Assembly (NCBI RefSeq): GCF_009258045.1
Contig: NZ_CP041166.1
Coordinates: forward strand, 1,550,001-1,614,000
DNA length: 64,000 bases
Reading direction: 5' to 3'
Origin: Sulfurimonas xiamenensis
GTDB lineage: Bacteria; Campylobacterota; Campylobacteria; Campylobacterales; Sulfurimonadaceae
Part shown: positions 3,435-43,109 of the stretch, piece by piece
Layout: every line of letters starts with the position of its first letter
How positions within the stretch are numbered: position 1 is the stretch's first letter
Program-made: the position numbers and the translations under genes
The notes under the pieces: model-generated
Told to the model about the DNA's origin: nothing
The model's database searches: none
What the model saw: the letters and a program-made list of their open reading frames with translations, nothing else

Positions 3435-5408
3435 ATGTCAAAATTTAAAATTTATTCAGATTATTCGCCAGCAGGCGACCAGCCTACAGCCATTAAAACC
3501 ATAAGTGATTCCATTCTTAAGGGTAATCGTTACCAAACCTTAGAAGGTGTTACAGGAAGCGGTAAAACCTATACTATGGCAAGTGTTATAGAAAAAGTGC
3601 AGATGCCGACCATTATTATGACGCATAACAAAACTCTTGCTGCTCAGCTTTACAGTGAGTTTCGTCAATTCTTTCCAAAAAATCATGTAGAGTACTTTGT
3701 ATCATATTATGATTATTATCAGCCAGAGGCGTACATTCCTCGTCAAGATCTGTTTATAGAAAAAGATAGTGCCATTAATGATGAACTTGAGCGTCTTCGC
3801 CTCTCTTCAACCGCGAATCTTCTCTCTTACGATGATGTTATTGTCGTAGCTTCAGTTTCAGCAAATTACGGGCTGGGAGACCCCGAGGAGTATGAAAGCA
3901 TGGTGCAATCCATCGCTGTCGGTGATGAAATAGCACAAAAAAAACTTCTGCTTCGTCTTGTCGAGATGGGTTACAGCCGAAACGACACCTACTTCGACAG
4001 CGGGCATATACGCGTAAACGGAGAGAGCTTGGATGTATTTCCGCCCTACTTTGAGCAAGAAGCCATCCGCATAGAGTTTTTCGGCGACGAGATAGAAGCT
4101 ATCTACACCTTTGATGTAATAGACAACAAAAAGCTTGAAGAGCACAAAAGTTTTACCATCTATGCAACCTCACAGTTTAGCGTAAGTCAAGAGAAAATGG
4201 CTGTGGCAATAAAACGCATAGAAGAGGAGCTCGACGAGAGGCTTGCTTACTTTCAAAAAGAGGGCAAACTTGTTGAATATCAGCGTCTAAAACAGAGAGT
4301 AGAGTTTGACCTTGAGATGCTTCAAACGACTGGAATGTGCAAAGGGGTTGAGAACTACTCAAGACTGCTTACAAACAAAAAACCGGGTGAAGCTCCATAC
4401 ACTCTGCTTGATTACTTTGCTCTGCACCATAAAGAGTATCTCGTAATTGTTGATGAATCACATGTTTCACTTCCGCAATACCGCGGCATGTATGCAGGAG
4501 ACAGAGCCAGAAAAGAAGTTTTGGTAGAGTATGGATTTCGTCTGCCAAGTGCGCTTGACAACCGTCCTTTAATGCTTGATGAGTATATTAATAAAGCACC
4601 TCACTATCTTTTTGTTTCTGCAACACCTTCGGAGTATGAAATAAAGCTCTCAAGTGTTTGTGCAAAGCAGATTATCCGTCCAACCGGTCTTTTAGACCCG
4701 GTGCTAGAAATAAAACCATCTACCAATCAAGTAGAAGATATCCACGATGAGATAAAAAAAATAATCATAAAAAATGAGCGCGTTCTTATAACAGTTCTAA
4801 CGAAAAAAATGGCAGAAGCACTTACAAAATACTTAGCTGACTTAGGCATAAAAGTACAGTATATGCACTCAGATATAGATACGATTGAAAGAAATCAGAT
4901 TATTCGTTCACTTCGCCAGGGAGAGTTTGATGTACTTATCGGAATCAATCTTCTTCGTGAAGGTCTAGACCTGCCTGAAGTCAGTTTGGTAGCAATATTA
5001 GATGCAGACAAAGAGGGATTTTTAAGAAGCGAAACTGCTCTTATTCAAACAATCGGCCGTGGAGCAAGAAACTCAAACGGAAGAGTTATTTTATACGCAA
5101 ATAAAATAACCCGTTCAATGCAAAAAGCTATAGATACAACAAATGCCAGAAGAGAAATACAAAAAGCATTTAACAAAAAAAACGGTATAACTCCTACAAC
5201 GACTATGCGCAAACTTGATGAAAATCTAAAAGTAGAAGATTACGGAAATATTTACCAAAAACATAAAAAAATGGATAAAATACCGCCGTCAGAGAGAAAA
5301 GCAATGATTAAAGAGCTCTCTATTAAAATGAAAGAAGCTGCTCGTGAGTTAAATTTTGAAGAAGCAGCAAGACTTCGTGATGAAATAACAAAAATAAAAA
5401 AACTTTAG
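3435..5408 (+). CDS. uvrB: Excinuclease ABC subunit B
   Basis: UvrB verifies DNA damage in nucleotide excision repair: UvrA loads it, it melts the helix with its beta-hairpin, then recruits UvrC. The 657 residues match the usual length. Walker A GVTGSGKT is at 38-45, the beta-hairpin [10 protein letters not shown] lies near residue 95, and the DESH helicase motif and motif VI region (QTIGRGARN) are intact. The C-terminal UVR domain that binds UvrC ends the protein ([14 protein letters not shown]). It sits alone behind its own -10 box rather than next to uvrA or uvrC. The dedA-like gene begins 16 bases after the stop and may be cotranscribed. Confidence 0.98.
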
Positions 5409-5424
5409 GAAAGCAATATTTAAA

Positions 5425-5988
5425 ATGGAAGATACATTTAGCAATTTAGCAACATATGGATACATTGGACTTTTTCTTTACTCGCTAGGCGGTGGTTTTA
5501 TAGCCCTTATCGGAGCAGGAGTTTTGTCATTTATGGGTAAAATGGATTTAAGCTTATCCATTTTTATAGCATTTACAGCAAATGCGCTCGGAGATTTTTT
5601 ACTTTTTTACATGGCAAGATACCAAAAAACAATGATGATGGATGGTCTGCGCAAACATAGAAGAAAACTAGCTCTAGCACATATTATGATGAAAAAAAAC
5701 GGCTCATGGATAATCTTAATTCAAAAATTTGTCTATGGCATAAAAACACTTATACCGATTGCTATCGGTTTAACAAAATATGACTTTAAAAAATTTGCAA
5801 TTTTAAATATATTGAGCGCTGCAGCATGGGCTTTAATATTTGGTATTGGAAGTTACTATTCAGGAGGTTTTTTAGTAAAGATGGCAGAGTTAGTCGGAGA
5901 CAAACCTTGGATAGCGCCTCTTATACTCGTGGTTCTTGGTGGGTCTTTATGGTTGTACATGACACATGCCACAAAGCGTAAGAATTAG
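5425..5988 (+). CDS. DedA/SNARE-associated family membrane protein
   Basis: A 187-residue inner-membrane protein with about five hydrophobic segments. DedA-family proteins act as lipid scramblases or undecaprenyl-phosphate recycling flippases and affect envelope homeostasis. Family marks are the re-entrant region near 25-55 with small residues (GGGFIALIGAG) and a later segment, FVYGIKTLIPIAIGLTKYDF, corresponding to the conserved FxxGxRtxxPxxaG motif with K for R. It follows uvrB by 16 bases. The last codons and the stop lie inside the first copy of a 25-base tandem repeat. Confidence 0.82.
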   Translation: MEDTFSNLATYGYIGLFLYSLGGGFIALIGAGVLSFMGKMDLSLSIFIAFTANALGDFLLFYMARYQKTMMMDGLRKHRRKLALAHIMMKKNGSWIILIQKFVYGIKTLIPIAIGLTKYDFKKFAILNILSAAAWALIFGIGSYYSGGFLVKMAELVGDKPWIAPLILVVLGGSLWLYMTHATKRKN

Positions 5989-12186: not shown

Positions 12187-12222
12187 AAAATTAACACAAA
12201 ATTAACACTTGTTTATTATACT
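12187..12222 (+). promoter_or_regulatory. Tandem 11-base repeat in the promoter of the TonB-receptor cluster
   Basis: AAAATTAACAC occurs twice head to tail (12187-12197 and 12198-12208), so TTAAC is repeated at exactly 11 bases, one helical turn. A -10-like TATACT (12217-12222) follows closely. OmpR/PhoB-type response regulators typically bind such 11-base direct repeats. No Fur-type palindrome is visible in the region. Confidence 0.5.
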
Positions 12223-12265: not shown

Positions 12266-14446
12266 ATGAAAAAAAGGGTATATCTTTCAGCAATCTGCGC
12301 GCTTGCTATCAATGCCAGCGCTTTAGATATAGGAACGATTCAGGTTGAATCTTCTACTATTGAGGACAAGTTTGCCACAAAAAAAACTGAGGTGTCTACA
12401 ACTACTACAATTAGCGGTGAAGAAGTTGATGAAGCGCATGCAGAAAGCGTACAGCAACTTTTGCAGTCAATTCCAGGTGTAACGACAGAGTATACTTCAG
12501 GGGATTCACTAAAAATTCACCTCAGAGGTGTAGAAAACCAAATGTATATGGGTGAAAAACCGGGTGTTGCAATCGTTATTGATGGTGTTCCGGTATTTGA
12601 GAGAACAGGAAAGGTAAATATAGACCTTGACAATGTAGAGAGCATTAAAGTCATCAAAGGGGGAGCTTCTTATCTATTTGGAGATGATGCACTCTCCGGA
12701 GCTGTTATTATCACAACAAAAAAGGGTGCAAAATACAACCACAACTATGGAGCGGTTGAATTTGGAAGTTATGGTTATAGAAAATATTTGGCAAGAACCG
12801 GCTATGCAAATGATAATTTGAGTTTTCATATTCAGGCAAGTCAAAAAAAGTCTGATGGCTACTGGGAAGATTCAGACTATGAATCAAACTATTTAAACGG
12901 TAAACTGCAATACTATATCGATGATACATCTGATCTTTCTTTTGGATTTGAGTATGCAGACAGAACAAAAGACACGCATGGAACAGTAGGCGGCGAAACA
13001 GCAGCAAGAACAAACCCTGAATCTATTTATTATGAAGATGATCAGGGCAGCAGAGACTATACAAGAGATTATGATGTTGAACTTTTAAAACTGTTTTTGA
13101 CATATTCCAAAGATTTTAGCAATAATTCAAACCTGCTTGTAAATGGATATATCTATACAGACGATACAACATATATGTCTGCACCGCAAACTAGAGACAG
13201 TGATGGACTTACAGATCCTTCTTTTGATGATGAAGATTATACTTATGACAATGATTATGCACAGATACAAAGAGGTATAAAGAGTGAATACAGAAGTTCG
13301 TTTGATACATTTGCTACTCTTTTAGGTCTTGATCTGAGATTTAACGAGTATGAAAACAAATCAATTTATAGAGTAAACCAAGCATTAATAACAAGTTATA
13401 GACCATTTACTGCAATTTCTGATTATTACACAGCAGGTGATGCAAAGAGTGATGACACAACAGATGAGAATGTTTATGCTGTTTATGGTGAATACAAGCA
13501 GGAGATCACAAAAGATTTAAGTGCAACAGCAAACCTTCGATATGACCTGATTAAACTGGATTATGAAGATCATATGGACAACAAATATAAAGAGGATTTC
13601 AAAGTCTACTCCTATAGATTGGGTATGAACTATAAGATAAATGACAATCTCGATATTTACGCAAACTACTCTACAGGTTTTAGAGCACCGACAGTTACTC
13701 AGCTTTATGCAGGAAGCACCAGTGCATGGGGATATACTGAAAATAATCCAGATCTAGATCCGGAAAAATCTCATAACTATGAGATAGGTCTTAGAGCTAG
13801 AGCAAAGGGAATCGCTTATGAAGCTGCACTATTTCAAATCGATAGAAAAGATTTCATTATGAAATCTTCTGGAAATTACGGTGATTCAACTAGGACTTAT
13901 ACTGATATGTGGGATAATATTGGAGGTGCAAGACATAGAGGTTTAGAACTATCAGCAGATGGCAAAGCAACCGATAAACTATCGTTTAACCTGGCGTATA
14001 CTTATCTTGATGCATATTACACACAATATGACAACTTCGCTATTGAATTTGGAGGGACAGACCTTACTTTTTTTGATGCAACTGACAACCAAATTCCTAG
14101 AACTCCAAGACATCAATTAAATCTTATATTAGACTATATGCCGATAAATGAGTTAAAACTAACAACAGAAGTAAATGCAAAGTCTGACTATTATGCAGAT
14201 GATTTAAATCAAATCAAAATAGCTGGACACGCTACGGTAAACCTGCTTGCAAACTATACAAATAAGATAGGTGATTATCAATACAACCTTTTTGCAAGAG
14301 TAGATAATGTTTTTGATAAATTTTACTACAACACGGCAAGATCTAGCGGTGACAGAAACGAAGATGGTGTATTTGATGCGGAAGATTTATCAATCACGGT
14401 AAATCAAGGCAGAGTATATACAGCGGGATTATCTGTAAAATTTTAA
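12266..14446 (+). CDS. TonB-dependent outer-membrane receptor
   Basis: A 726-residue receptor that would import a chelate or cofactor across the outer membrane using TonB energy. The signal peptide spans about residues 1-19. The plug domain follows, with SVQQLLQSIPGVTTEY, VAIVIDGVPVF and VESIKVIKGGASYLFGDDALSGAVIITTKKG as its conserved blocks. The beta-barrel follows, with the TonB-dependent-receptor box STGFRAPTVTQLYAG near 470-484 and a terminal aromatic residue (VKF). The ligand cannot be told from sequence. It heads the ten-gene cluster with exbB 24 bases downstream. Base composition is like its neighbours. Confidence 0.93.
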   Translation: MKKRVYLSAICALAINASALDIGTIQVESSTIEDKFATKKTEVSTTTTISGEEVDEAHAESVQQLLQSIPGVTTEYTSGDSLKIHLRGVENQMYMGEKPGVAIVIDGVPVFERTGKVNIDLDNVESIKVIKGGASYLFGDDALSGAVIITTKKGAKYNHNYGAVEFGSYGYRKYLARTGYANDNLSFHIQASQKKSDGYWEDSDYESNYLNGKLQYYIDDTSDLSFGFEYADRTKDTHGTVGGETAARTNPESIYYEDDQGSRDYTRDYDVELLKLFLTYSKDFSNNSNLLVNGYIYTDDTTYMSAPQTRDSDGLTDPSFDDEDYTYDNDYAQIQRGIKSEYRSSFDTFATLLGLDLRFNEYENKSIYRVNQALITSYRPFTAISDYYTAGDAKSDDTTDENVYAVYGEYKQEITKDLSATANLRYDLIKLDYEDHMDNKYKEDFKVYSYRLGMNYKINDNLDIYANYSTGFRAPTVTQLYAGSTSAWGYTENNPDLDPEKSHNYEIGLRARAKGIAYEAALFQIDRKDFIMKSSGNYGDSTRTYTDMWDNIGGARHRGLELSADGKATDKLSFNLAYTYLDAYYTQYDNFAIEFGGTDLTFFDATDNQIPRTPRHQLNLILDYMPINELKLTTEVNAKSDYYADDLNQIKIAGHATVNLLANYTNKIGDYQYNLFARVDNVFDKFYYNTARSSGDRNEDGVFDAEDLSITVNQGRVYTAGLSVKF

Positions 14447-14470
14447 GAAAAGTAGAAAGTAGGCAGATAT

Positions 14471-14914
14471 ATGAACATAGAACTGGTTAAAGATGCTGTT
14501 GATTATGGCATTATTGGGCTTCTTGGAGTGATGAGTTTTATCGCTTTTTGGTTTTGGATTGAGAGACTTCTATTTTACAAAGGGATAGATGTAAGCCATT
14601 TTGAGACAAAAGAGGAACTTGAAATTGCTCTTACAAACAATATCAATATCATCTCAACATTTGGTTCAAATGCTCCATATATCGGTCTTTTAGGTACCGT
14701 ATTTGGCATAATTATCACTTTTTATGCTATGGGGCAAAGCAATGATTTGGATGTTAAGATAATTATGACATCCCTAGCTCTTGCTCTTAAAGCTACGGCG
14801 ATGGGTCTTTTAGTAGCTATCCCCGCTACGGTATTTTATAACCATTTAGCTAGAAGAATCGAAGTTGTTTTAGCTCTTTGGGATATTCATCAAAAGAAAA
14901 AAAATGCAAATTAA
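14471..14914 (+). CDS. exbB: ExbB-type proton channel subunit
   Basis: ExbB and ExbD form the proton channel that energises TonB. The 147 residues contain three membrane helices: about 10-30, 66-86 (SNAPYIGLLGTVFGIIITFYAMG) and 98-120 (ALALKATAMGLLVAIPATVFYNHL). The two latter segments are the MotA/TolQ/ExbB signature. This is the short Campylobacterota/Helicobacter form. It follows the receptor gene and overlaps exbD by 11 bases, so this receptor has its own energy module. Confidence 0.92.
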   Translation: MNIELVKDAVDYGIIGLLGVMSFIAFWFWIERLLFYKGIDVSHFETKEELEIALTNNINIISTFGSNAPYIGLLGTVFGIIITFYAMGQSNDLDVKIIMTSLALALKATAMGLLVAIPATVFYNHLARRIEVVLALWDIHQKKKNAN

Positions 14915-15284
14915 AAAATTTGACTCAATCAATGTAGTCCCTTTTATAGACATTATGCTTGTTCTTCTTGTAATAGTTCTTACCACTGCTACTTTTGTTG
15001 CGAAGGGAGTTATTCCTGTTGATCTTCCGGAGTCAAAAGTAGCAGCAAAACAGGATAATAAAAAAAACTTAACTATTACAATTAAACAAGACGGAAAGAT
15101 TTTGTTTGACAAAACAGTTGTTCTTATGGATGATGTTAAGCATAAGTTGTGTGATTACAAAGACGATACACCTATTCATATAAATTGTGATAAAAATGCA
15201 AAGTTCGATCATTTTGTTATTCTTTTAGACACTTTAAAACAAAACAATTTTAAAAACCTTGGAATAGTTACAGAAAAAGATTAA
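14904..15284 (+). CDS. exbD: ExbD-type proton channel subunit
   Basis: The 126-residue product has one N-terminal membrane helix containing the proton-carrying aspartate in the conserved block INVVPFIDIMLVLLVI (about 7-22). A periplasmic domain follows, with the typical VDLPESKVA and KILFDKTVVLMDDV stretches. It works with ExbB to pass proton motive force to the TonB encoded at the far end of the cluster. The start overlaps exbB by 11 bases. Confidence 0.93.
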   Translation: MQIKKFDSINVVPFIDIMLVLLVIVLTTATFVAKGVIPVDLPESKVAAKQDNKKNLTITIKQDGKILFDKTVVLMDDVKHKLCDYKDDTPIHINCDKNAKFDHFVILLDTLKQNNFKNLGIVTEKD

Positions 15285-15302
15285 CCGCAAAAGAGATTAT
15301 CC

Positions 15303-15962
15303 ATGGAATATACAGCTTTATTTTCGATCTTTATCATAGGTCTCTCTTACGGAGCAACAGCGTGCATGTTTTCATGTATGCCATTTTTAACACCTCTGCT
15401 TGTTAGTAATTCAAGTGGTACAAAACAGGCAATGGGGATTATCCTACCATTTAGTCTAGGTAGAATATTTAGCTATACGCTTATAGCTGTTGTTGCATAT
15501 CTGAGCTCTGCTTGGGTAAAGCAGCTACTGAATGACAACTCTTTATTTGGATTTATTTTAGGCTTTAGCACTATCGGGATGGGGGCATTTTTACTATACA
15601 AAAGTTTTAAACCTGCTTCTTCATGCGGACATACAACACCTCTAATAAAGAAACCTAAATTAAACAAGTTTGGTTTTTTTGCTATCGGTGCAACGATGTC
15701 AGTAAATCCATGTGCACCGATAATGGCACTTTTGGCAGTTGCGGCAAACAGCAGCAATATTTACAACACAATAGGGTTGGGACTCTTTTTCGGACTGGGA
15801 GCCGTTATGTTTTCAATCCTCTTTTATGGATTTATAGTATCAAAGGTTATTAAGGGATTTATGATTCAGTTCTCCTCGTACAGACTTTTTATAGAGCGCA
15901 CGGCGGCACTTTTACTTATGATAGTAGGAGTGCTTGTGCTAAATGGTGTTTTAATACTTTGA
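15303..15962 (+). CDS. CcdA/DsbD-like (SafE/TauE-annotated) membrane protein
   Basis: A 219-residue protein with about six membrane helices. Two cysteine motifs face each other as in thiol-disulfide transporters: ACMFSCMPFLTP (near 20-31) in the first helix and NPCAPIMAL (near 139) in the fourth. Databases often label this group sulfite exporter TauE/SafE or cytochrome c biogenesis transmembrane region. The paired Cys-Pro helices argue for electron transfer across the membrane (CcdA-like) or metal handling more than for sulfite export. A further Cys-Gly-His (CGHTTP) sits in the central loop. It lies between exbD and the Fe-S membrane proteins, which favours a redox or metal role. The exact function is inferred. 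Confidence 0.7.
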   Translation: MEYTALFSIFIIGLSYGATACMFSCMPFLTPLLVSNSSGTKQAMGIILPFSLGRIFSYTLIAVVAYLSSAWVKQLLNDNSLFGFILGFSTIGMGAFLLYKSFKPASSCGHTTPLIKKPKLNKFGFFAIGATMSVNPCAPIMALLAVAANSSNIYNTIGLGLFFGLGAVMFSILFYGFIVSKVIKGFMIQFSSYRLFIERTAALLLMIVGVLVLNGVLIL

Positions 15963-15978
15963 TAGAAAAAGGAAAAAA

Positions 15979-18345
15979 ATGGTAAATTTTATAAAACGCG
16001 ATAAAGATGATATTTATGCAAAACCTATACTTGGTTTTTTATTTAAAAATCAAAAATTTTTATTATCGTTAAAGATAGCTGTTTCGGTGCTGTTTGTATA
16101 TGCTCTTTACTTTGGATTTGCACATACAGGCAAAGATAACACATTTACTACCGCTGTTTTTTGGGGAATTTTCTGGTCTTTGTTTATGGTTCTGACTCTT
16201 CCGACATTCGGACGAATCTTTTGCGGTATCTGCCCTCACGGATTTATGGGAAAATACATCACAAAATACGGGCTTAAAAAAACCATGCCAAAATGGATGC
16301 AAAACAGATTTATAGGTGTGCTGCTGCTTGTGTTTGGCTGGTGGGGCATTTACTATATGTTTCCGGGTCTCTTTAGAACTCCTCAAGGCACTGCAATTTT
16401 ATTTACGGTGATGACGCTTATCGCTTTTGTAATCTACTTTTTATACAAAGATATGAGCTACTGTAAATATGTCTGCCCTATCGGAACACTCACAAGAGCT
16501 TATGCAAAACTCTCATTTACATGGCTTGGAACCTACAAAAGTGCATGTAATGAATGCAGAACTTTTGAGTGTGCGACGGCATGTCCCTACAACCTAAAAC
16601 CATTTACATTTGACAACAGAAACTCTATGACGGACTGTACACTCTGCATGGATTGCAGCAGTGCATGTGAGGCTGTGAGTTTTAAATTTAAAAAACCGTC
16701 ATTTTCTCTTTTTTCAAAACTCCAACCACTTAAAGCCGAAGTTTGGGCATATATACTTATCCTCGCTTCCATATCCATCAGCATGTCGTTTCATCACGGC
16801 ATAGGAAGAAGCAATGCTGCGGATATAATGATATGGTCAAAAACGGCTGAGTTTTTTAAAAATTATATAGATTTTGGTTCTATTGATACTATCGGATTAT
16901 TTGCATTTGTTTATGCTCTTATTTTTACTATTTCAGCTGCGATTATAGGCATGTTTATAGCATCAAAAATTCTTAAAAAAGATTTTAACGCTACATTTTA
17001 TGATTTGGGATACTCCTACGCGCCTCTCTTTATACTCGGCTCCATTGCCCATTCTCTTGAAGTGTTTTTTACAAAAGGATATGAACATATCACAGAAGGA
17101 TTTGCTTATGGATTTGGATTTTCGTTAGATGTTGCACCATTGGCAAGCAGAGGAGATAGCTGGCTGCATATATTTGGTCTGCTAAAATGGGTTGCTGTTA
17201 TCTGGGCATTTATAATTCTATACAAAAGAGTAAAACTTTTAAATGTACCAAAACTAAGAAAAATAGCCGCTTTTCCTTTTGCCGCCTCTTTAATCATCTT
17301 TTTTATCGGCGTCAATATGTACACGGGCTATATCTTTAAAACTTACGGCAAAGCATCAAGCGGACATGCAAATCATTCAAGTGCACAAAAACGCTTTCAG
17401 GGCACTGCTGAAAATTTAAAATCCTCAGATACTACCGCTTTAAAAAAGCCTGATATCAAAGATACTCTCTACTTTTCACAAACCAATCCCGCCATAAAGA
17501 AAAAAACTTACGGCGGGGGGCATTACAGCAGAATTCCTGTAAAAAAGGTGTGGCCTGTTTTTAAAGACGCAAAAGGCAAAGAAAACTGTTTGGGAACTAT
17601 AGATGCAGAGCTTTATCTGCTTGATGCAAATCTCAATACAACAAAAATTGCACACTCTAAAGAACCGGGATGCAAATCCATAAGCTTTAAAATGCCCGAT
17701 AATGGATACTACAATCTTTTTTATATAGACAAAAAAGTTCAGGATGATACGCTATTTGTAAAAACTGCAAAATATGAGATTATGAGATTTAACCATAGCA
17801 ACGACGCCGTTTATGACAAAGAGAAGATGGCTGCACACTCTATAAAAGAAGCTTCTTTTGATATTGTAAGGCTTAGAGATGATGATGAAACCTTTTATCA
17901 CAATCTCTACTCTGGTGAAAATATAAGAGTTCAGGTTTTGCTTGACGGTAAAGCTGTTGAAGGTGCAGATATAGCACTAAGCACAAAAACAGGGTGGCTA
18001 AAGAGTCTTAAAACAGACAAAGATGGAGTCGCATCTTTTATGCTTATAAATGATTATTTTCCCAAGTGGAGCGAATTTGACAAGAGACATAAAAATGAAT
18101 TTTTGTTAACCGCTTCTTATACAAAAAATGTAAGTGAAAATGAAGGGAGTAAAGATTACAAGAAGATAAGATATACTGCAACATATCCCTCTTTCTACTA
18201 TCCAAACAGCAGTCAGTACAGCTCTTACTCATACGGTCTGGCGGCAGCAATTATAGCCATGATAGCTTCAGGATTTGCTATTTTTTGGTATAGATCCACA
18301 AGAGAGAAACCATTTAAAGAGGTACGCTTTAATGAAGAAAATTAG
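15979..18345 (+). CDS. NosR-like 4Fe-4S membrane protein fused to a DUF4198-like periplasmic domain
   Basis: This 788-residue protein starts with four membrane helices carrying the NosR/NapH/RdxA-type motifs CGICPHG (C82, C85) and CKYVCPIG (C162, C166). A cytoplasmic pair of [4Fe-4S] sites follows: C190, C193, C198, C202 and C220, C223, C226, C230. About five more helices run from 245 to 450. Residues about 500-755 have no helix and look like a periplasmic beta-rich module. Its last part (LLDGKAVEGADIALSTKTGW, then TDKDGVASFML) resembles DUF4198/NikK-type domains found with nickel or cobalt uptake. One final helix (about 757-775) anchors the C-terminus. Such proteins carry electrons between quinol, cytoplasm and periplasm. 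The domain combination is unusual; the DUF4198 match is by eye only. Confidence 0.75.
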   Translation: MVNFIKRDKDDIYAKPILGFLFKNQKFLLSLKIAVSVLFVYALYFGFAHTGKDNTFTTAVFWGIFWSLFMVLTLPTFGRIFCGICPHGFMGKYITKYGLKKTMPKWMQNRFIGVLLLVFGWWGIYYMFPGLFRTPQGTAILFTVMTLIAFVIYFLYKDMSYCKYVCPIGTLTRAYAKLSFTWLGTYKSACNECRTFECATACPYNLKPFTFDNRNSMTDCTLCMDCSSACEAVSFKFKKPSFSLFSKLQPLKAEVWAYILILASISISMSFHHGIGRSNAADIMIWSKTAEFFKNYIDFGSIDTIGLFAFVYALIFTISAAIIGMFIASKILKKDFNATFYDLGYSYAPLFILGSIAHSLEVFFTKGYEHITEGFAYGFGFSLDVAPLASRGDSWLHIFGLLKWVAVIWAFIILYKRVKLLNVPKLRKIAAFPFAASLIIFFIGVNMYTGYIFKTYGKASSGHANHSSAQKRFQGTAENLKSSDTTALKKPDIKDTLYFSQTNPAIKKKTYGGGHYSRIPVKKVWPVFKDAKGKENCLGTIDAELYLLDANLNTTKIAHSKEPGCKSISFKMPDNGYYNLFYIDKKVQDDTLFVKTAKYEIMRFNHSNDAVYDKEKMAAHSIKEASFDIVRLRDDDETFYHNLYSGENIRVQVLLDGKAVEGADIALSTKTGWLKSLKTDKDGVASFMLINDYFPKWSEFDKRHKNEFLLTASYTKNVSENEGSKDYKKIRYTATYPSFYYPNSSQYSSYSYGLAAAIIAMIASGFAIFWYRSTREKPFKEVRFNEEN

Positions 18346-19312
18346 AGAGTTTATCAATAAGGCAGATATTAGAAAATTTCGTTTTTGGCTGCAGCTATTC
18401 TTTTTTATCATCTTTATATACGGTGGCTATTTTGCTATAAATCTTGGAAACAGCATTCCTGTATTTTCATGCGGATATGACAAAGAAGTAGGCGGAATGT
18501 GCTATTTTCTGCCGCTTCAGCATCAGCTTGCCCGTCCTTTGGATGTGCTCTTTAGTGTGGCAAGCATTTCGGTTTTGATTGGTTTTGTAACCTTTTTACT
18601 CTGGTTTATCGTCTTTAACAAGGCATGGTGCGGCTATGCATGTCCTCTTGGGACTATGCAGGACTGGATTACCGCTTTGAGAAAAAAGATGGGTATTAGA
18701 TACAGTACATATACGCAACCTCAATTTGACAAACTAAAAAAAATAAAGTATTTTATGCTCGCTTTGGTGATTTTAGCACCGATGGGTGTTGGCATGGGTC
18801 TTCTTGGGGGCGAGTGGAGAACCGCCTTTTGTGAAATTTGCCCGGGCAGAATGATTACGCCGCTTTTTGTAGGAGATTTTTCTCAATGGAGTTTAGACTT
18901 TTCAACAAAATCAGCAATGATTTTAACCTCTTTGGGTCTAATCATTACAGGTCTGTTTTTTATCGGCTCATTTTTTAAAAAAAGATTTTTCTGTTTTTTC
19001 TGTCCTATGAGTGCAATGCACTATATATTTAGCGATGCCGCGCTTTTAAAACTGAAAAAAGATGGTGAAAAATGTACAAAATGCGGTGACTGCTACAATG
19101 TCTGTGATATGCAGATAAAAGATATAGCCGATGATGTCACAAGCACAAATATACTCAGAGATGACTGCATCCTTTGCATGAAGTGTGTAGCTGCATGTCC
19201 AGAGGATGACGCCCTTCATGTTGATATTTTAAATATGAAACTATTTACATCCACAAAAGGCGGTTTTGCAAAAAGAATGGAGATGGATAAGTTGGAGAAA
19301 AAAGATGACTAA
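18332..19312 (+). CDS. NapH-like 4Fe-4S membrane electron-transfer protein
   Basis: I chose the ATG at 18332 because AGAGG lies about 10 bases upstream and the residues before it read as non-coding; it overlaps the preceding gene by 14 bases. The 326-residue product has four or five helices. Its membrane-edge cysteine motifs are CGYACPLG (C100, C104), CEICPGR (C167, C170) and CFFCPMS (C221, C224). Two ferredoxin clusters follow: C248/C251/C254/C258 and C279/C282/C285/C289. NapH-type proteins pass quinol electrons onwards. With the preceding NosR-like protein it could form a two-protein electron conduit feeding the reductase encoded next. Confidence 0.82.
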   Translation: MKKIREFINKADIRKFRFWLQLFFFIIFIYGGYFAINLGNSIPVFSCGYDKEVGGMCYFLPLQHQLARPLDVLFSVASISVLIGFVTFLLWFIVFNKAWCGYACPLGTMQDWITALRKKMGIRYSTYTQPQFDKLKKIKYFMLALVILAPMGVGMGLLGGEWRTAFCEICPGRMITPLFVGDFSQWSLDFSTKSAMILTSLGLIITGLFFIGSFFKKRFFCFFCPMSAMHYIFSDAALLKLKKDGEKCTKCGDCYNVCDMQIKDIADDVTSTNILRDDCILCMKCVAACPEDDALHVDILNMKLFTSTKGGFAKRMEMDKLEKKDD

Positions 19313-20570
19313 ACATACGATTGAAACGCCAAAAGAGAGACAAAACCGCCATAAAGCGATGGAAGCTGCAATACTGCTAGAGAAAATAAAACATGATTTT
19401 AAAGAGCCGCCAAAGGCAATGGATTATTTTTATGACCTCTATGAGAGAGTACATTGCAAACATGAGCCTCTTCACAGCGATAAAGCCAAAGTAGGAACCA
19501 TGTGTATTCAGGTTCCTTCTGAGATAATCCATGCGCTTGACGCCGTTCCGCTAAGGCTTTGCAACGGTTTTTACACGGATGATGAGATAGGAAGCGACCT
19601 GCTACCGTCTAAATCATGTCCTTTGGTAAAAGCTACAGTCGGACAGTTCGCATCAGATAACTTCTCAGACAAGCCAGATATCGTTATCTCTCCTACTACA
19701 TGTGATCAAAAAGCAAAATCAGGCGCGATTATAGAGAACATGGGATTTGAAGTTTATGATATGGAGTTTCCAAGAACTAAAGAGAGCCATGAGAGCAGAG
19801 AGTACTGGCGACGAAGTGTAAGAAAGTTTACAAAAGATCTTTCAGAAAATCTCAACACAAAACTCTCAAAACAAAAACTAAAAGATGCCATTAAAAAAGT
19901 GGGATATGCTCAACATCTATACCATAAACTAAATATACTAAGAAAAAATGCAACCTCCCCTATTTTGGGCAAAGATATGTTTTTAGTGACAAACGCTTTT
20001 TTCTTTGACAAGATAGATAACTGGATAGAAGCGGTGGAAGATCTTGCAAATGAGTGTGAGCGAAGAGTCAAAGATGAAATAGCCGTAGCTTCAAAAAGAA
20101 GTCCTCGCATAGTCTATACGGGTTCGCCTCCGATATTTCCAAACCTTAAAATCCCTCTTTTGATAGAGCTATCCGATGCTATTATAGTTGCGGATGAAAC
20201 TTGCTCGTCAAACAGAATGTTCAATGATATGGTAAGTGTGGATGAGTGGTTTATGTACGATATGGTTGACTCAATTGCAGATAAATATCTCAAAGGGTGC
20301 ACCTGCCCGATTTTTACCAAAAATGATGACAGGAAAAGAAGAATCTTAGACCTTGTGAGAGATTATAAAGCAGACGGTGTAGTTTATCAAGCATTTGCGG
20401 GATGTCAGGTATATGAGATGGAGCAGAGATCCGTTTTAGAAGCAATGGAGAAAGCCGGGGTGCCTATACTTTACCTTGAGAGCGACTACTCTCCAAGTCA
20501 ATTAGGGCAGTTAACAACTAGAATTGAAGCGTTTGTAGAATCACTTAAAAATAGAAAAAGGAGACAATAG
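19305..20570 (+). CDS. HgdB/BcrC/YjiM-family reductase (2-hydroxyacyl-CoA dehydratase or double-cubane-cluster type)
   Basis: The start at 19305 has GGAG 8 bases upstream and overlaps the NapH-like gene by 8 bases. The 421 residues belong to the superfamily of 2-hydroxyacyl-CoA dehydratase subunits, benzoyl-CoA reductase subunits and single-subunit double-cubane-cluster proteins (DCCP; E. coli YjiM). The marks are TMCIQVPSEIIHALDAVP (C67), LRLCNGF (C86), KSCPLVKA (C105), PTTCDQKA (C133), ADETCSSNRMF (C300), CTCP (C332, C334) and AGCQV (C367). Only one such subunit is encoded, whereas dehydratases need two different ones. One subunit plus one activator is the DCCP arrangement, known to reduce small molecules such as acetylene, azide or hydrazine. 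There are no CoA-pathway genes nearby. The natural substrate is unknown. Confidence 0.8.
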   Translation: MTKHTIETPKERQNRHKAMEAAILLEKIKHDFKEPPKAMDYFYDLYERVHCKHEPLHSDKAKVGTMCIQVPSEIIHALDAVPLRLCNGFYTDDEIGSDLLPSKSCPLVKATVGQFASDNFSDKPDIVISPTTCDQKAKSGAIIENMGFEVYDMEFPRTKESHESREYWRRSVRKFTKDLSENLNTKLSKQKLKDAIKKVGYAQHLYHKLNILRKNATSPILGKDMFLVTNAFFFDKIDNWIEAVEDLANECERRVKDEIAVASKRSPRIVYTGSPPIFPNLKIPLLIELSDAIIVADETCSSNRMFNDMVSVDEWFMYDMVDSIADKYLKGCTCPIFTKNDDRKRRILDLVRDYKADGVVYQAFAGCQVYEMEQRSVLEAMEKAGVPILYLESDYSPSQLGQLTTRIEAFVESLKNRKRRQ

Positions 20571-21373
20571 TGCACTATTTTGCTGGAATCGACATAGGCT
20601 CAACAGCGATTAAAATTGCGATTGTGGATGAGAATAAAAAACTTGCAGGACACAAAATAAGCGCAAGCGGAAGTATGTTTTACAAATATGCGAAACAAGC
20701 ACTTAAAGAGCTGCTAAACGAGCTTGGAATTGATGAAAAAGATCTGGTATATACCGTTGCAACCGGTTATGGAAGAAAACTCTTTAAAGAGGCTGATGAA
20801 AACATAAGCGAAATTACTGCAAATGCAATGGGTGCAATGGCAGCAGCAGAGGGAAAGTGCGATATCAAAACCATTATAAACATAGGCGGTCAGGATTCCA
20901 AAGCTATCTCTTTGGATGACCAAGGCAATGTGGTAAATTTTGCAATGAATGACAGATGTGCGGCAGGAACTGGAAAATTTCTGGATGTTGTAGCTATGAA
21001 TCTAGAGATAGAAGTTGATGAACTCGGAGAATATCATTTCAGATCAAAAGGCACGCCGCTATCAATCAACAGCACATGTGCAGTCTTTGCAGAATCAGAG
21101 ATAATAGGACTCTTGGGCAACAACAACAGCGTTGAAGATATTGTTGCAGGTGTTCACTACTCCATCGCAAAAAGAATTATAAAACTTGTTAAAAGAGTCG
21201 GCATAAAAGAGGGAATCTACTTTGACGGCGGTCCTGCACTAAATAGCGGTTTGGTAAGTGCAATTGAAAATGAGTTGGGCAAAGAGATATTTATCCCTGA
21301 ATTTCCGCAGATAACCACCTCCTTGGGTGCTGCAATACTGGCACATGAATCTTATGGATATGAAAATAAATAA
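20570..21373 (+). CDS. ASKHA-family ATPase activator of the reductase (HgdC/YjiL type)
   Basis: The gene starts with GTG at 20570, one base overlapping the TAG of the reductase gene, with AGGAG 8 bases upstream. The 267-residue product has the phosphate-1 motif GIDIGSTAIK (6-15), INIGGQDSKAI (103-113), and the two cysteines that hold one bridging [4Fe-4S] cluster in the homodimer: C130 in NDRCAAGTG and C170 in STCAVFAESE. These archerases use ATP to push an electron to very low potential into the partner reductase. All diagnostic residues are intact, so the pair is expected to be active. Confidence 0.92.
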   Translation: MHYFAGIDIGSTAIKIAIVDENKKLAGHKISASGSMFYKYAKQALKELLNELGIDEKDLVYTVATGYGRKLFKEADENISEITANAMGAMAAAEGKCDIKTIINIGGQDSKAISLDDQGNVVNFAMNDRCAAGTGKFLDVVAMNLEIEVDELGEYHFRSKGTPLSINSTCAVFAESEIIGLLGNNNSVEDIVAGVHYSIAKRIIKLVKRVGIKEGIYFDGGPALNSGLVSAIENELGKEIFIPEFPQITTSLGAAILAHESYGYENK

Positions 21374-21406
21374 AGCGTAATTAAAATAAAGGAAGAAGTG
21401 TAATAG

Positions 21407-24400
21407 ATGTTTGAAAGAATAATAAAGTTTTTTATTGAGAACTATAAAGTAAATTACATGCTCTTTTTTTTAATTTTTGCAGTGGGTATCTACTCCTATA
21501 CAAAGATACCAAAAGAGATATCACCCACAATCGAACCTGATTCCATAACAATTAGAGGCTCCTATCAAGGCGCTTCTGTTGACACCTTAAATACAATGGC
21601 CGTTCAGGAGATTGAAGATGAGGTTAAAAACATCATTGGTGTCGATGCTGTTTCATCGGTAATAACGCCGGGGAAATTCAGCATAATTCTCGAACTTGAC
21701 AAAAGAGCGGATAAAGCAACTGTTACGCGTGATGCCGAAGATGCACTCTCACTTATAAAAGAAAATCTTCCCAGTGATATGGATGAACCGGTCATAAGAG
21801 GTGTTGCACATTCAAGAAGTATAATGCATGTATCTATACTCTCTTCAAATGTTCCCAGAGATGAGCTAAAGGAGTTATCCAAAAAGTTTAAAACCAAACT
21901 GCTCTCCATTAAAGATGTATCGGATGTAACTATATTTGGAGATTCTGAGCTTTTTTACGAAGTTTTGATTGATGAAAAAAAGGTTAATGCCTACAATCTT
22001 TCAGTAAATGAAATTTTACGCCTCTTCTCAGAGGTCTCATACATATTTCCCCTTGGAAAGATAGACAATCCTAAAAAGCAATATTATATATCGACACAAA
22101 GTGATAAAAGATTCTCTAGGGAACTTGAAAATACAATACTCAATATAAACAATCAGCAAATTGTATTAAAAGATATAGCAACTATAAAGAAGAGATATGA
22201 AGATGCTTCCACGCTTGCAAGCATGGATGGAAAAAATTCAATCACACTTGCTATATCACAAAATCCAAAAGGCGATGCCATTACCATAGCAGAGGATATA
22301 AATAATCTTCTATCTAAAATGAAAGTCAAAGATGTTGAGTTTAGTGTAAGGATGGACTCTTCAACCATCATAAAAGACAGACTCAATATTGTTATATCAA
22401 ATATTTTATTCGGCGTTCTTCTTATTACACTATTAACAGCTGTTTTAATCAATATCCGCATGGCTCTTGTGATTGCGCTAGGAATTCCCACCTCTTTTGT
22501 TATGGGTGCTATCTACTTTTATCTTACAGGTCACAGCATCAATATAAATTCACTTATAGGGGTTTTAATAGCCATAGGAATTATTGTCGATGATGCCATT
22601 GTAGTAAGTGAAAATATTCAGCAATATATTGAGAAGGGATACAAGGCAAAAGAGGCAGCCTTTTTAGGAGTAAAAGAGGTTGCAAAACCGGTAGTCATAG
22701 CCTCTTTAACTACTATATTTTCTTTTATACCTCTTTTAATGATAAGCGGAAAACTTGGGGAAATAGTGCAGCTTATACCAATTGCCTTTAGCGCACTTGT
22801 AATTGCATCTTTGCTAGAATCGTTTATTTTTTTGCCCATCCATGCTACACATGTTCTAAGTCCAAACTCAAAAACACTTTCATGGAAAAAAGTCAATCTG
22901 CTTTATCAAAAAGCTTTGACTTTTCTTGTCCAATATCAAAAAAGTTTTTTATTGATTTTTCTTATCATTGTACCTCTTCTTATTTTTTACGGTGTAAAAA
23001 AATCAAAATTTCAAATGTTTCAACCTTTTGACAATTCATCCATAAATATTACATTTAAAGCAGACCCTGCAACAACGCTTGAAGATTCTTTAAATATTGT
23101 ACAAACTTTAGAAAAGGATATCTTAAAAAATGAAGATAAATTTTTTGTAAAACATGTAAGCTCTACCGCGGGATACAGAAGAAGCGCTACCGGCACTACC
23201 GAAATATATCCGTATGTCGGCTATATAAGTTTAGAGCTGCATAAAATGAAACCTGAAAATTTTGTGGATAAATACATCACACCTTATCTTAGTTTTTATT
23301 ATGATCCTAAAGAAAGAATCAGAAATATCTCTTCACAGAAAATCTCAAAAGATTTAAGAGCCTGGCTGAAAGAACAGAACTATAAAGAGAGATTTCATTT
23401 AAATAATCTTATGGTTGTAGAGAACAAGATGGGAAATACAAAAGCAGATATTCGTATCGGGGTTGTAAGTGATGATTATCAAAAAGCTATAAAAGCCGTC
23501 AGAACCATTGAAGACAGTTTTAGCAAGATTGAGGGTATAGAATATTTTGGCGACAATATCAAAGTCGGAACTGATGAAATTAAACTCAAACTAAACAGCT
23601 ACGGTGAAGAGCTCGGAATTACTGAAAAACTTCTGGGTAACTATATCTCAAAGCTCTATCTATCTCTAAAAATTGCCACAATCTATGATGGGAAAGAGCT
23701 GCTAGATGTAAAAGTAAAATCACTTAATTTTGAGGATGATTTAGAGAGTTTTAAAAGGCTTGAAATACCTCTGCCAAACAATACATTTGTAAAACTTGAA
23801 GATATCTGTGAATTTGAAAAAATAACCGCCTTGGAGATGTTAGTAAAAGATGACGGTCATACAAACTTTTATGTTTTTGCAAATGTTGATTCTTCTAAAA
23901 TAACGGCAACTGAAGTATTGGAAAAAATAGAACCAACGATACAAAAGTTAAAAAAAGAGGGATTGATGTTAAAGTTTAAAGGCGAAGCAGAACAAAAAAA
24001 GAGCATGCAGTCTGAGATGATACTGGCATCAATAGTAGCTATGGTTCTAATATTTATCTCCATTTTATACCTTTTCAACTCCATAAGAGAGACTCTCATA
24101 GTAATGTCAGTGATTCCTTTTTCGATTCTTGGAGTTTATATAGGTCACTTTATAATGGGTCTAAATATCTCCCTTCCCTCTTTAATCGGTGCGTTGGGGC
24201 TCGCAGGCGTCATTGTAAATGACGGTATCATAATGATGGCAACGATAAAAGTTGCAACACATAAAGATGATATTTTCACACTTGCAGCAAAAAGATTTAG
24301 ACCAATCATACTTACCTCTATCACTACGATTATAGGGCTTTCATCATTAATGTTTTTTGCAACAGCGCAGGCTGTAACATTTCAACCCCTAGCTATTGCT

Positions 24401-24493
24401 ATCGGTTTTGGACTTTTATGGGGAACGATACTAAATCTTTTTTATCTTCCTATACTCTACAATTTCTTATTAGGTTATAAAAAACATGCATAG
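21407..24493 (+). CDS. RND-family inner-membrane permease without adjacent adaptor
   Basis: A 1028-residue RND (AcrB/HAE1-like) transporter with the usual duplicated plan: an N-terminal helix, a large periplasmic loop (about 35-335), six helices, and the same again. The proton-relay aspartates occur in TM4 as [14 protein letters not shown] (near 392-405). The second half has [13 protein letters not shown], where only one acidic residue remains. RND pumps normally need a periplasmic adaptor and an outer-membrane channel, and neither is encoded here. The last 8 bases overlap tonB, so it is translationally coupled to TonB. It may export something to the periplasm, such as a ligand or waste product, or use a distant adaptor. 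Confidence 0.88.
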
Positions 24494-25247
24494 ATACTTC
24501 TCTTCATTTTTACTCAGCTCTGCCGTTTATATAACGGCTGCGATATTAATTATTTACTTTATCTCCGTCAATACATTTAGTGATAAAGATGTTAAAGTTA
24601 TTGATATACAAAAAGTTAGTTTATCAACAGTTGCTACAAAAAGTAGCCCTAAGGTACAAGAAGAACCAAAACCTGAACCAAAGCCTGAACCAAAACCTGA
24701 ACCAAAACCTGAACCAAAACCTGAACCAAAACCAAAACCAAAACCAAAACCTGAACCAAAACCTGAGCCAAAACCTGAGCCAAAACCTGAGCCAAAACCT
24801 GAGCCGAAACCTGAACCAAAACCTGAGCCGAAACCTGAACCGAAACCTGAGTCAGAGCCTGTTGAAAAATTTGTTCAAAAAGAGCCTGTTTCTAAAGCGC
24901 AACAAATAAAAGAGAAAAAAAATATCTCAAATGCCAATAAAGTAGTAAAAAATGATATGACTAAAGCAAAAAGAGAGATGTTTATCGCCAATTTGATAAA
25001 ACGGATTAATAGCAATAAATCATACCCTCGCTCAGCCAGAAGACGAGCTATAGAGGGAGTTGTTGCAATTGAATTTTTAATTCTAGAAGATGGAAATGTA
25101 AAAGATATAAATATTGTTTCTGGTAATACTATTTTTAAAAAGTCAGCCATTAAAGCAATAGAAAATAGTTTTCCTATTGAAATAGAAGAGTCACTATTTC
25201 ATTTTCCAAAAAAATTTAAAATTAATATCTCTTATATCTTAAAGTAA
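24486..25247 (+). CDS. tonB: TonB energy-transducing protein with long Pro-Glu-Pro-Lys rod
   Basis: The 253-residue product has one N-terminal helix (about 12-28), then a rigid proline-rich spacer of PEPK repeats (61-121), a Lys-rich linker, and a C-terminal TonB domain (about 165-250: [20 protein letters not shown] ... [15 protein letters not shown]). It links the ExbBD proton channel to the outer-membrane receptor at the head of the cluster. It overlaps the RND gene by 8 bases and ends 8 bases before a converging gene. The repeated spacer is coded by near-identical 12-base units and is likely to vary in length. Confidence 0.93.
24666..24848 (+). repeat. Hexa/dodecanucleotide repeat coding the TonB spacer
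   Basis: About 180 bases made of CCTGAACCAAAA-like 12-base units with third-position variants (GAA/GAG, CCA/CCG), coding PEPK, with one internal PKPKPK stretch. Repeat length is a multiple of 6, so slippage keeps the frame and changes only rod length. Confidence 0.9.
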
Positions 25248-41085: not shown

Positions 41086-42363
41086 TTATGCAAAAATAAA
41101 ACGATTTATACCATTTTCATATTCATGCGCAAGCACCTGATTATGAACTTTTAAAATAGAATCGACCAGATACAAACCGAGCCCAAAACTATTTTTCGCC
41201 GGATTGTCTTTAGTAAAAGGTTCTATATAGTATTGTAAAGGGTGTGCGATACACTCTCCTTTGCTCTCAAAACAGAGCTCACCGTTTTTTATCAAAATCT
41301 TTACATGGTTGTCTGTTGAGTATTTTATCCCATTGTCAATCATATTTTTAATAGCTGTAGTGTATAGTCTATAATTTGCACTGATTTTATGGGTTGCTTC
41401 AACATTATTTACAGTAACATTTTTTTCATCAACCATAGCCATATCAATAGCACCATCAATTATATCTATCAAACGATACTCTGCAAAATCTGTTTTATCT
41501 CCGAGACTTGTTACCTCTTCTATAAGAGCAAATTCATTTACCAAAGACTCTAAACGACCAAAAATAGAACTAAATCTATCTCTTTGTTTTTGAGATTCAA
41601 GCATTTGTGTTGCAATTGTGCCTTTTGCAATAGGTGTTTTTAACTCATGCATTATATTTCGCAAGAAGAGTGTTCTTGATTCTAAAATAATATTTATTTT
41701 TTCTCTTGCTGCTTCTAGTTCATTTGAAATTAATGAAATTTCATCATGTCCTCTTGTTTTAAAAGATATATTCATATCTCCATTTCCATAAAGCGCAATT
41801 TTTTTTCTAAGTCTAATAAGCGGACGCAATCTTTGAAGTATCAAAACAAATGATGATGTGATTATTAAAATAATTATCATATAAGAATATGCAACGGGCC
41901 AATATTTGTAGGGTTTTAACTCTTCATCAAGAATTAGTATTGAAGATGACGGATTTTGGATATAAAAATATATTTTTTTATTAAACTCCAACATACTAGT
42001 TGTTAAGTCAGTTATAACTTTTTTAGTATAAAAACCTTGTTGTGAAAACATTAAAGAAGCATCGACACTTTGAAAATTTTTTTTCTTTAAAATTTTTGCA
42101 TTTTTTAAAATAATTTCTACTATCTCTTTGTCTTTTTTCAAAACAAAGCCGTATATTGCCAAATTTGCTTCAAGCATAATCTGCGGATTTTGTTTTTGTT
42201 GATGTTCTTGATATATCTGAATGATAGCTGTATGTTTTGTAAAAATATTGTTTATATAACGCTGTTTATTTTGTTGAAAAAATTCCCAAAAAACCACACT
42301 TACACTCACTAATGTAACTGTAAATGTAAATAAAATAGTTATTAAAACAGCATGTTGACGCAT
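41086..42363 (-). CDS. ArsS-like sensor histidine kinase
   Basis: A 425-residue sensor with two membrane helices (about 5-25 and 160-182) enclosing a periplasmic sensor domain of about 130 residues. A HAMP-like segment, the phosphoacceptor motif NIMHELKTPIAKG (His near 240), and ATPase boxes KNMIDNGIKYS (N) and FGLGLYLVDSIL (G2) follow. The variant HELKTPIAKG, with K/G after the P, is typical of the Campylobacterota ArsS/CprS branch. Helicobacter ArsS senses acid; the stimulus here is unknown. It follows its response regulator by 19 bases. Confidence 0.88.
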   Translation of the reverse strand: MRQHAVLITILFTFTVTLVSVSVVFWEFFQQNKQRYINNIFTKHTAIIQIYQEHQQKQNPQIMLEANLAIYGFVLKKDKEIVEIILKNAKILKKKNFQSVDASLMFSQQGFYTKKVITDLTTSMLEFNKKIYFYIQNPSSSILILDEELKPYKYWPVAYSYMIIILIITSSFVLILQRLRPLIRLRKKIALYGNGDMNISFKTRGHDEISLISNELEAAREKINIILESRTLFLRNIMHELKTPIAKGTIATQMLESQKQRDRFSSIFGRLESLVNEFALIEEVTSLGDKTDFAEYRLIDIIDGAIDMAMVDEKNVTVNNVEATHKISANYRLYTTAIKNMIDNGIKYSTDNHVKILIKNGELCFESKGECIAHPLQYYIEPFTKDNPAKNSFGLGLYLVDSILKVHNQVLAHEYENGINRFIFA

Positions 42364-42382
42364 AGCCCTCAGCTCCTAAAAA

Positions 42383-43045: not shown

Positions 43046-43109
43046 AAATTAAATTTTAACAGATATGAACTAATAAGTAGTTAATATTTATGAAATATTT
43101 TTTATTCTT

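Follow-up and report, generated by a model that had tools for sequence, protein, structure and literature searches.

A cluster of ten co-oriented genes occupies positions 12266-25247 of a 64,000 nt stretch of the Sulfurimonas xiamenensis genome (hereafter the window; G000:C1:1550001-1614000 of a single-contig, 1.92-Mb genome), and combines a TonB-dependent receptor with membrane iron-sulfur (Fe-S) proteins and a double-cubane-type reductase accompanied by its ATP-dependent activator. By sequence comparison this cluster is built around one inherited unit, in which a NapH-like membrane protein and the HgdB-family reductase form an obligate pair in the genomes searched, and the promoter box of the unit is common to copper-trafficking genes. 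The ligand of the cluster is probably copper, a new proposal, as the preliminary description of the cluster had named no specific ligand. We put at about even chances the fuller proposal that the unit serves copper acquisition, with ATP-driven electrons of low potential crossing the membrane to reduce chelated copper in the periplasm.

All ten open reading frames are present on the + strand, separated by gaps of 16-33 bases or overlapping by 1-14 bases, which agrees with the compact, co-oriented layout described previously (gaps of 33 bases or less, or overlaps), and the Pfam and NCBIfam assignments matched the family names and roles proposed for all ten genes. The likely starts of the napH-like gene (18332) and the reductase gene (19305) are slightly off those of the longest open reading frames. 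The first gene encodes the receptor (12266-14446, 726 amino acids), followed by the accessory genes exbB (14471-14914; exbB2 equivalog, 178.7 bits, above the cut-off of 135) and exbD (14904-15284, by family search), and by a CcdA/DsbD_2-type membrane protein (15303-15962; PF13386, 66.6 bits) with C-x3-C-M-P and N-P-C-A-P motifs. The 'NosR-like' gene is a fusion of a membrane polyferredoxin (15979-17307; Fer4_5), which is a separate gene in some relatives, and a periplasmic domain of the DUF4198/Zcp fold with one C-terminal transmembrane helix and a conserved cytosolic tail (17308-18345), the boundary between the two parts being approximate. These are followed by the NapH-like membrane protein (18332-19312; Fer4_5/NapH-like), the single-subunit reductase (19305-20570; HGD-D, E 3e-94), the activator of the HgdC/BadF family (20570-21373; CoA_E_activ, 233 bits, above the cut-off of 125), an accessory AcrB-type RND permease lacking an adaptor and an outer-membrane channel of its own (21407-24493) and an accessory tonB gene (24486-25247), the last two assigned by family search. 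The tonB gene contains a long Pro-Lys/Glu repeat tract at 24660-24860 (PKPEPKPEP...), a stiff periplasmic spacer.

The neighbourhoods covered were those of the window, 28 tight loci, 9 distant loci and 80 named loci (the top-ranking 80 of 89 relatives detected). In a tblastn census, 108 loci contained the reductase; 96 were unique, and 64 of the latter had at least 6.5 kb before and at least 2.5 kb after the reductase. The gene order in these 64 non-redundant loci is far beyond chance, with the NapH-like gene directly 5′ of the reductase in 64/64, the DUF4198-like domain found in 64/64, the activator directly 3′ of the reductase in 60/64, a receptor in 60/64 (a 61st, in L033, is just beyond the distance limit, and that of L135 is encoded on the opposite strand), and the CcdA-like gene present in 55/64. 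When the loci were examined for a break between exbD and the Fe-S genes, the order was found to be kept. Within 397 Campylobacterota genomes, the reductase sequences fall into a close orthologue group, with 29 loci spread over 27 genomes and 57-100% identity, and a second, distant group (30-34% identity). With five candidates scored per genome, a NapH-like profile exceeded 500 bits in exactly the 27 genomes holding a tight-group reductase, while the other 370 genomes had no match above 371 bits; seven further matches of 315-382 bits were spread over seven genomes, two of which are among the 27. None of the nine distant-group neighbourhoods (0/9) had a BLAST match to the NapH-like protein, the receptor or the NosR-like/DUF4198 protein. 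Both the order kept across phyla and the joint presence of reductase and NapH-like protein in the same 27 of 397 genomes support the earlier idea that the genes form one pathway. The nearest named relatives are metagenome-assembled genomes of Sulfurimonas (such as L070, with 95% reductase identity), and the unit was also found in metagenome-assembled genomes labelled Gallionella, Sideroxydans, Nitrosomonadales, Rhodocyclaceae, Dechloromonas, Rhodoferax, Comamonadaceae, Methylococcaceae and Bacteroidota, some of the contigs showing only part of it.

The RND permease, exbB, exbD and tonB are accessory and lie outside the conserved core: within 4.5 kb after the reductase, exbB and exbD were each present in 22/64 loci and the RND gene in 14/64, and up to 9 kb in the 56 loci with long flanks we counted exbB 24, exbD 20, tonB 18 and RND 14 times. 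The complete TonB motor noted earlier is thus present in the window, but is not a general property of the unit. In two genomes (G287 and G304), the promoter box precedes a second operon that contains the polyferredoxin and RND genes, and in G304 this operon is followed by a cluster-type receptor that has a separate box. Such accessory parts are thus detachable from the core yet kept. The four activator-less loci (L035, L060, L097 and L102) are second copies of the unit in genomes that each hold another copy (L097 is paired with L070, both from isolate BM502, and L102 with L147, both from isolate STCSWMC_194), and the activator may serve these copies in trans. A variant lacking both HgdB and HgdC adjoins the unit in Sulfuricurvum-type loci, and consists of a receptor, a His-rich DUF4198 protein of 272 amino acids, a distant NapH-like protein, a CcdA-like protein and TonB (L062:17246-19055, L089:2853-3671 and neighbours, and L063); its existence suggests that the double-cubane pair acts as a booster when the cargo is difficult. 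Candidate matches to this variant also occur in G337, G044, G234, G217 and G300.

The window genome contains one full-length PF06050 (HgdB-family) gene, the sole other match covering 43 positions and including a stop. The best solved relatives of the reductase are double-cubane cluster proteins (DCCP, E 5e-64), with two-subunit enzymes at 9e-17 or weaker. In a tree of 104 sequences, 91 clade members grouped together (support 0.88), nine distant proteins grouped with DCCP (support 0.78), and the clade plus the DCCP-like proteins were split from BzdN, MbdN and HadC (support 0.997); judged by this tree, the reductase clade is a sister of the double-cubane proteins and not a two-subunit dehydratase, as had been anticipated. 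A two-subunit 2-hydroxyacyl-CoA dehydratase or class I benzoyl-CoA reductase was rejected because there is no second homologous subunit gene and because of the separation in the tree. The single HgdB gene and the activator adjacent to it in most loci likewise uphold the earlier description of one subunit plus one activator, the double-cubane arrangement. Since the reductase scored 340.4 bits against the DCCP equivalog NF040772, about 10 bits below the cut-off of 350, we refer to it as DCCP-like. The nine cysteines listed previously (C51, C67, C86, C105, C133, C300, C332, C334 and C367) are all invariant in 20 aligned orthologues. Seven of these (C67, C86, C105, C133, C300, C334 and C367) align with cysteines of the solved DCCP structure 7yyl and are each present in at least 89/90 clade members (C67 and C367 in 89/90), whereas C332 (90/90 members) and C51 (82/90) are private to the clade, being present in 0/9 distant DCCP-like proteins and absent from the solved DCCP. 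The solved protein is described as reducing small molecules in reactions of unclear physiological relevance, and one ATP per electron is stated to be potentially sufficient to lower the potential by ~500 mV, towards -1 V (PMC11971306).

The NapH-like protein contains 16 cysteines that are invariant in 62 sequences. Based on helix positions and positively charged loop residues in a structural model (predicted local distance difference test score, pLDDT, 81.6), these are predicted to form two cytosolic ferredoxin sites and two sets of four cysteines, one on the cytosolic and one on the periplasmic side. The predicted periplasmic side carries C47, C57, H64, C167 and C170, all invariant, and the predicted cytosolic side C100, C104, C221 and C224 plus the two ferredoxin motifs, so arranged that the four Fe-S sites may form a wire through the membrane. 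The motifs C-x(9-10)-C-x5-QH and C-x2-C-P-x-R were present in 61/61 non-redundant sequences, which had been picked by similarity to the NapH-like protein itself. The match to TIGR02163 was 80.8 bits, below the cut-off of 213; none of the 30 Foldseek matches of the model to solved structures reached E <= 0.001, and the best 60 of 72 matches of the profile to the PDB were all via the ferredoxin region. Of the adjacent fusion, subtype B, the beta/gamma and the Bacteroidota loci keep only the second part, with its own signal-like start. The model of this DUF4198-like domain (mean pLDDT 85.8) matched the folds of Zcp (9mhj, Z 18.1) and of the nickel-bound DUF4198 protein (9gcb, Z 15.8), the next unrelated fold being at Z 7.3, although the window protein scored 29.0 bits against PF10670, below the cut-off of 34, and two stand-alone versions gave no PF10670 match. 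One DUF4198 protein is reported to bind nickel (PMC12537917), and clusters with PepSY proteins are described as often carrying DUF4198 proteins (PMC8238504).

The evidence on the cargo comes from the promoter. Upstream regions of the unit share the sequence TTAACA-y-n4-TTAACACT just 5′ of the -10 region (identified by eye), which in the window is a direct repeat, TTAACAC-AAAA-TTAACACT, at 12191-12209 on the + strand, with an 11-base phase and OmpR/PhoB-type spacing, ending 56 bases 5′ of the first gene. The sequence TTAACACT was found in 26 of 47 non-redundant upstream regions, compared to 1.4 expected from shuffled sequences. An exact TTAACAYNNNNTTAACA occurs only twice in the whole 1.92-Mb genome, both times 5′ of TonB receptors, and the second copy precedes a 658 amino acid receptor of the OprC/NosA type (L182:10120-12096, equal to G000:C1:276119-278095, − strand). 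The best curated family of this receptor is TonB-copper TIGR01778 (193 bits, below the cut-off of 472), and among solved proteins it is matched best by OprC (3e-27), with the CPNRM of its CPNRMDPP sequence aligned to that of OprC. A stricter form of the box was present at 57 places in 45 of 121 family genomes, compared to 5 for the reversed control. Fifty of these places were inspected, the other seven being cluster loci (G000, G200, G186, G116, G367 and two in G288); some of the 50 are also at cluster loci. Based on motifs and BLAST, with a Pfam search of a single representative for each of six categories (OprC-type, DsbD_2, HMA, NosL, regulator and oxidase-like), 40 of the 50 were assigned: nine OprC-type receptors, nine DsbD_2 proteins, four periplasmic heavy-metal-binding (HMA) proteins, two NosL, five cluster-type receptors, three NosR-like proteins, two exbB, four oxidase-like proteins, one EF-hand protein and one response regulator. 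Seven of the nine OprC-type receptors have CPNRMD, while that of L193 has CVNRMD and the sequence of L196 ends early, and the nine DsbD_2 proteins carry GHC[IV]GMCGG, one of them on the divergent side of the box.

At the unit itself, the exact box was found in 31/56 Campylobacterota loci and its reversed control in 0/56. Genomes without the unit (such as G027 and G037) also have the box 5′ of OprC-type receptors, and therefore the regulon is independent of the unit. Regulators of the OmpR type are encoded next to the unit, for example in L187 and L103. Response regulators that are 36-55% identical to the regulator of L187, which has a box of its own, adjoin the unit in 14 loci (11 distinct). 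Outside Campylobacterota, a SCO1/SenC gene is located 3′ of the Rhodocyclaceae unit (6.9e-42), and ActD of alternative complex III 5′ of the Bacteroidota unit (7.5e-51). It is this sharing of the promoter box with copper genes that leads us to name copper as the probable cargo.

Membrane proteins of ~440 amino acids, cytochrome-oxidase-like in appearance, are encoded in L169, L170, L173-L175, L189 and L201 (214-295 bases behind the copper-linked box), as well as at L062:964-2286 and L089:15487-16827; one of them has a C-terminal cytochrome c domain (PF13442, 27.4 bits), and these proteins could be an alternative oxidase used when copper is scarce. Receptor genes at or beside the unit are furthermore preceded by a conserved leader hairpin with a stem of ~10 pairs (CCTTGCC/GGCAAGG type) and the invariant loop AGTTTGGCGAC, often with a second stem (GCACC...GGTGC) 3′ of it. 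It was located at L034:3180-3330, L035:4990-5140, L060:2775-2925 and 5292-5442, L067:3720-3870, L069:16975-17125, L095:3990-4140, L097:515-665 and 4204-4354, and L102:5896-6046. Double changes were found in 3/14 pairs, and Rfam at the gathering threshold detected tRNAs only, and no hairpin family, in the window and seven loci (five hairpin loci, L034 and L120); the hairpin is possibly a riboswitch or attenuator.

Among solved proteins, the cluster receptor was also matched, more weakly, by CrtA (9rvq), the best stretch being residues 409-689 (E 1.6e-11, rank 8 of 11). The cluster receptor has no conserved cysteine, and candidate metal contacts in the type A receptors are H85 (43/49), M95 (47/49) and H616 (46/49). 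The best NCBIfam match of the window receptor is the TonB-siderophor subfamily, with 217.6 bits, just short of the cut-off of 223.5.

From these parts we infer the copper cargo, an outward electron flow, reduction in the periplasm, and each of the chemical and transport steps that follow, the membrane topology and Fe-S sites being predicted. The receptor, driven by TonB and ExbBD, would carry a copper complex into the periplasm, while the cytosolic activator would hydrolyse ATP and push electrons onto the single-subunit double-cubane reductase. The reductase would need no ligand binding, and would hand electrons of very low potential to its NapH-like partner. The four predicted Fe-S sites of this partner, together with the polyferredoxin in the window version, could conduct the electrons across the inner membrane to its periplasmic face, where Cu(II) in a tight chelate, kept close to the anchored domain of the DUF4198/Zcp fold, would be reduced. 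The resulting Cu(I) would pass to periplasmic chaperones and the CcdA-like protein, and in loci with an RND permease the latter would expel the spent ligand. The ten window genes include no inner-membrane importer, which together with an invariant membrane Fe-S partner with cysteines on both faces makes reduction at the periplasmic face likelier than reduction in the cytosol. Outward reduction is also supported by analogy with the receptor and PepSY_TM copper or iron reductases described in PMC12914433, PMC13038864 and PMC8238504. On anatomy alone, an ATP-driven outward electron pump would be the most economical reading. That such a pump brings electrons down to about -1 V to the periplasm, and so strips copper from chelates beyond the reach of quinol- or NADH-driven reductases, is a more tentative proposal to which we give clearly less than an even chance. 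Certain Cu(II) peptide complexes resist reduction, and a potential of about -1 V may be required for some Cu(II) chelates.

A similar chain could instead serve reductive iron uptake, in which a ferric siderophore of very negative potential is reduced in the periplasm by the ATP-driven Fe-S proteins and Fe(II) enters via FeoB. The siderophore-type match of the receptor is in keeping with this, as are the strong iron regulation reported for DUF4198 proteins in Caulobacter (PMC3751524) and the location of DUF4198 proteins next to iron-responsive receptors in Alteromonas (PMC7190382). PepSY_TM genes, a family of siderophore and copper reductases, lie beside the unit in two loci (L097:2888-4048 and L142:10239-11465), and the window has a gene judged by eye to be FeoB-like at 43110-45248, adjoining a two-component pair (region 41086-45248) whose response regulator shares only 30% identity with the copper-linked one. 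Scores for a Fur box (19-base consensus) were, however, no better than those of shuffled sequences, with 11/19 at the window operon, below the shuffle mean of 11.8, and 3/83 upstream regions of relatives, some of them redundant, at p <= 0.05. As the promoter box is shared with copper genes and none of its 40 assigned places is a known iron-uptake gene, we consider iron an unlikely cargo.

Slightly less probable still is the reading of the preliminary description, in which the ligand enters the cytosol for reduction by the double-cubane protein, with electrons supplied from the quinol pool through the membrane Fe-S proteins. By established potentials, quinol is too oxidising to reduce the activator, and the gene set speaks against this route as well, with no importer for the inner membrane, an RND permease in only a minority of loci, and conserved NapH-like motifs that include four periplasm-side cysteines and the QH motif. 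In its favour, reductase and activator look cytosolic, the solved DCCP acts on small molecules (PMC11971306), and NapH-like proteins are thought to take up donor electrons, in some cases probably from quinol (PMC8238504). The earlier inference of a ligand that is imported and then reduced may hold, with copper as the probable ligand, but direct action of the cytosolic reductase on it is the less likely route.

We know of no HgdB-family protein that matures clusters, and NapH proteins of other systems mature without an HgdB-type protein, both of which make it very unlikely that reductase and activator handle no cargo and repair or mature copper-attacked clusters of the NapH-like protein and polyferredoxin, even with an invariant NapH-like/HgdB pairing, an existing variant without HgdBC and the reported inactivation of Fe-S enzymes by excess Cu(I) (PMC12914433).

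Several findings weigh against periplasmic copper reduction as the function of the unit. The best solved match of the cluster receptor is YncD/PqqU and not a copper receptor; it does not belong to the OprC family, TIGR01778 being absent from the 21 families listed for it. No histidine is invariant or nearly so in 67 sequences of the DUF4198-like domain, in which ligands were not mapped singly, and the putative periplasm-side Fe-S cluster of the NapH-like protein is deduced from cysteines alone. Simple Cu(II) reduction needs no potential near -1 V, leaving the need for ATP unexplained unless the chelate is very stable. With regard to the regulon, 10/50 box places were unassigned, including genes that by eye are tryptophanyl-tRNA synthetase-like and ankyrin-like, and the four oxidase-like genes begin 280-295 bases away from it. 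Of the Campylobacterota unit loci, 25/56 lack the exact box and 14/56 the relaxed one, and the box was found in 0/12 unit loci from other phyla. Finally, nosZ was present in only 14/27 unit-bearing genomes compared to 113/370 others, counts that are uncorrected for relatedness.

Other assignments were considered as well. A role of the unit as NosZ accessory was rejected, as this association with nosZ is too weak. The NosZ propeller model has two matches in the window genome (G000:C1:1176447-1176662 and 1207198-1207413), and NosL matches lie near G000:C1:1215549-1221669. Lanthanide uptake, considered because of EF-hand genes near L120 and L036, was dropped, as were corrinoid and nickel uptake; the regulon gave no indication of any of these, for which no separate search was made.

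If periplasmic copper reduction by this unit is correct, it would provide the first likely physiological role for a clade of low-potential double-cubane proteins, and the ATP-powered pump would represent a novel way of moving electrons across a membrane. The clade is locked across several phyla to one membrane Fe-S partner and a TonB receptor, which makes the open question of its function testable. Copper supply limits nitrous oxide reductase and heme-copper oxidases, and a copper unit in Sulfurimonas-type denitrifiers would therefore bear on nitrous oxide turnover, while the promoter box offers a handle on the copper regulon in Campylobacterota. Copper acquisition by bacteria is described as poorly known, with few receptors and one putative periplasmic reductase, CrpH (PMC12914433, PMC13038864).

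No description of the gene set was found in the open-access literature among the matches listed, and the closest comparison is with Bordetella pertussis, where CrtA is reported to import chelated copper, CrpH is the putative periplasmic copper reductase and the promoter is described as lacking a Fur site (PMC12914433, PMC13038864). Shared by this system and the unit are a TonB-dependent receptor encoded in one operon with an inner-membrane metal reductase, putative in the unit, the occasional presence of ExbBD/TonB and copper chaperones, the lack of a Fur site, and a link to heme-copper respiration. They differ in that CrpH is described as a heme-type PepSY_TM protein, whereas the ten window genes include no PepSY gene and instead encode membrane-bound Fe-S proteins together with an ATP-driven activator and a double-cubane-type reductase. 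The PepSY-DUF2271-DUF4198-ApbE clusters, as outlined in PMC8238504, combine extracytosolic metal reduction, which is proposed for the unit as well, with a DUF4198-type partner and a nearby receptor; in contrast, the window genes have no flavinylated protein, PepSY protein or ApbE, and the DUF4198-like domain is membrane-anchored or fused to a polyferredoxin. With the OprC/NosA copper receptors the unit shares the promoter box, in the window genome and in relatives, but the cluster receptor lacks their CPNRM motif and a TIGR01778 match. Like the NapH, NosR and PceC membrane ferredoxins, the NapH-like protein has Fer4_5 motifs, membrane helices and a C-terminal ferredoxin domain, the general layout of the NapH family; it differs by two additional motifs that are invariant and face the predicted periplasmic side, C-x(9-10)-C-x5-QH and C-x2-C-P-x-R, the first of which is, to our knowledge, absent from canonical NapH. 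The Carboxydothermus DCCP (6eno, 7yyl) has the same arrangement of a single HgdB-type subunit with one ATP-dependent activator, and shares seven cysteines with the window reductase, which is set apart by its separate sister clade, its two extra cysteines and its position next to a NapH-like protein in all 64 loci.

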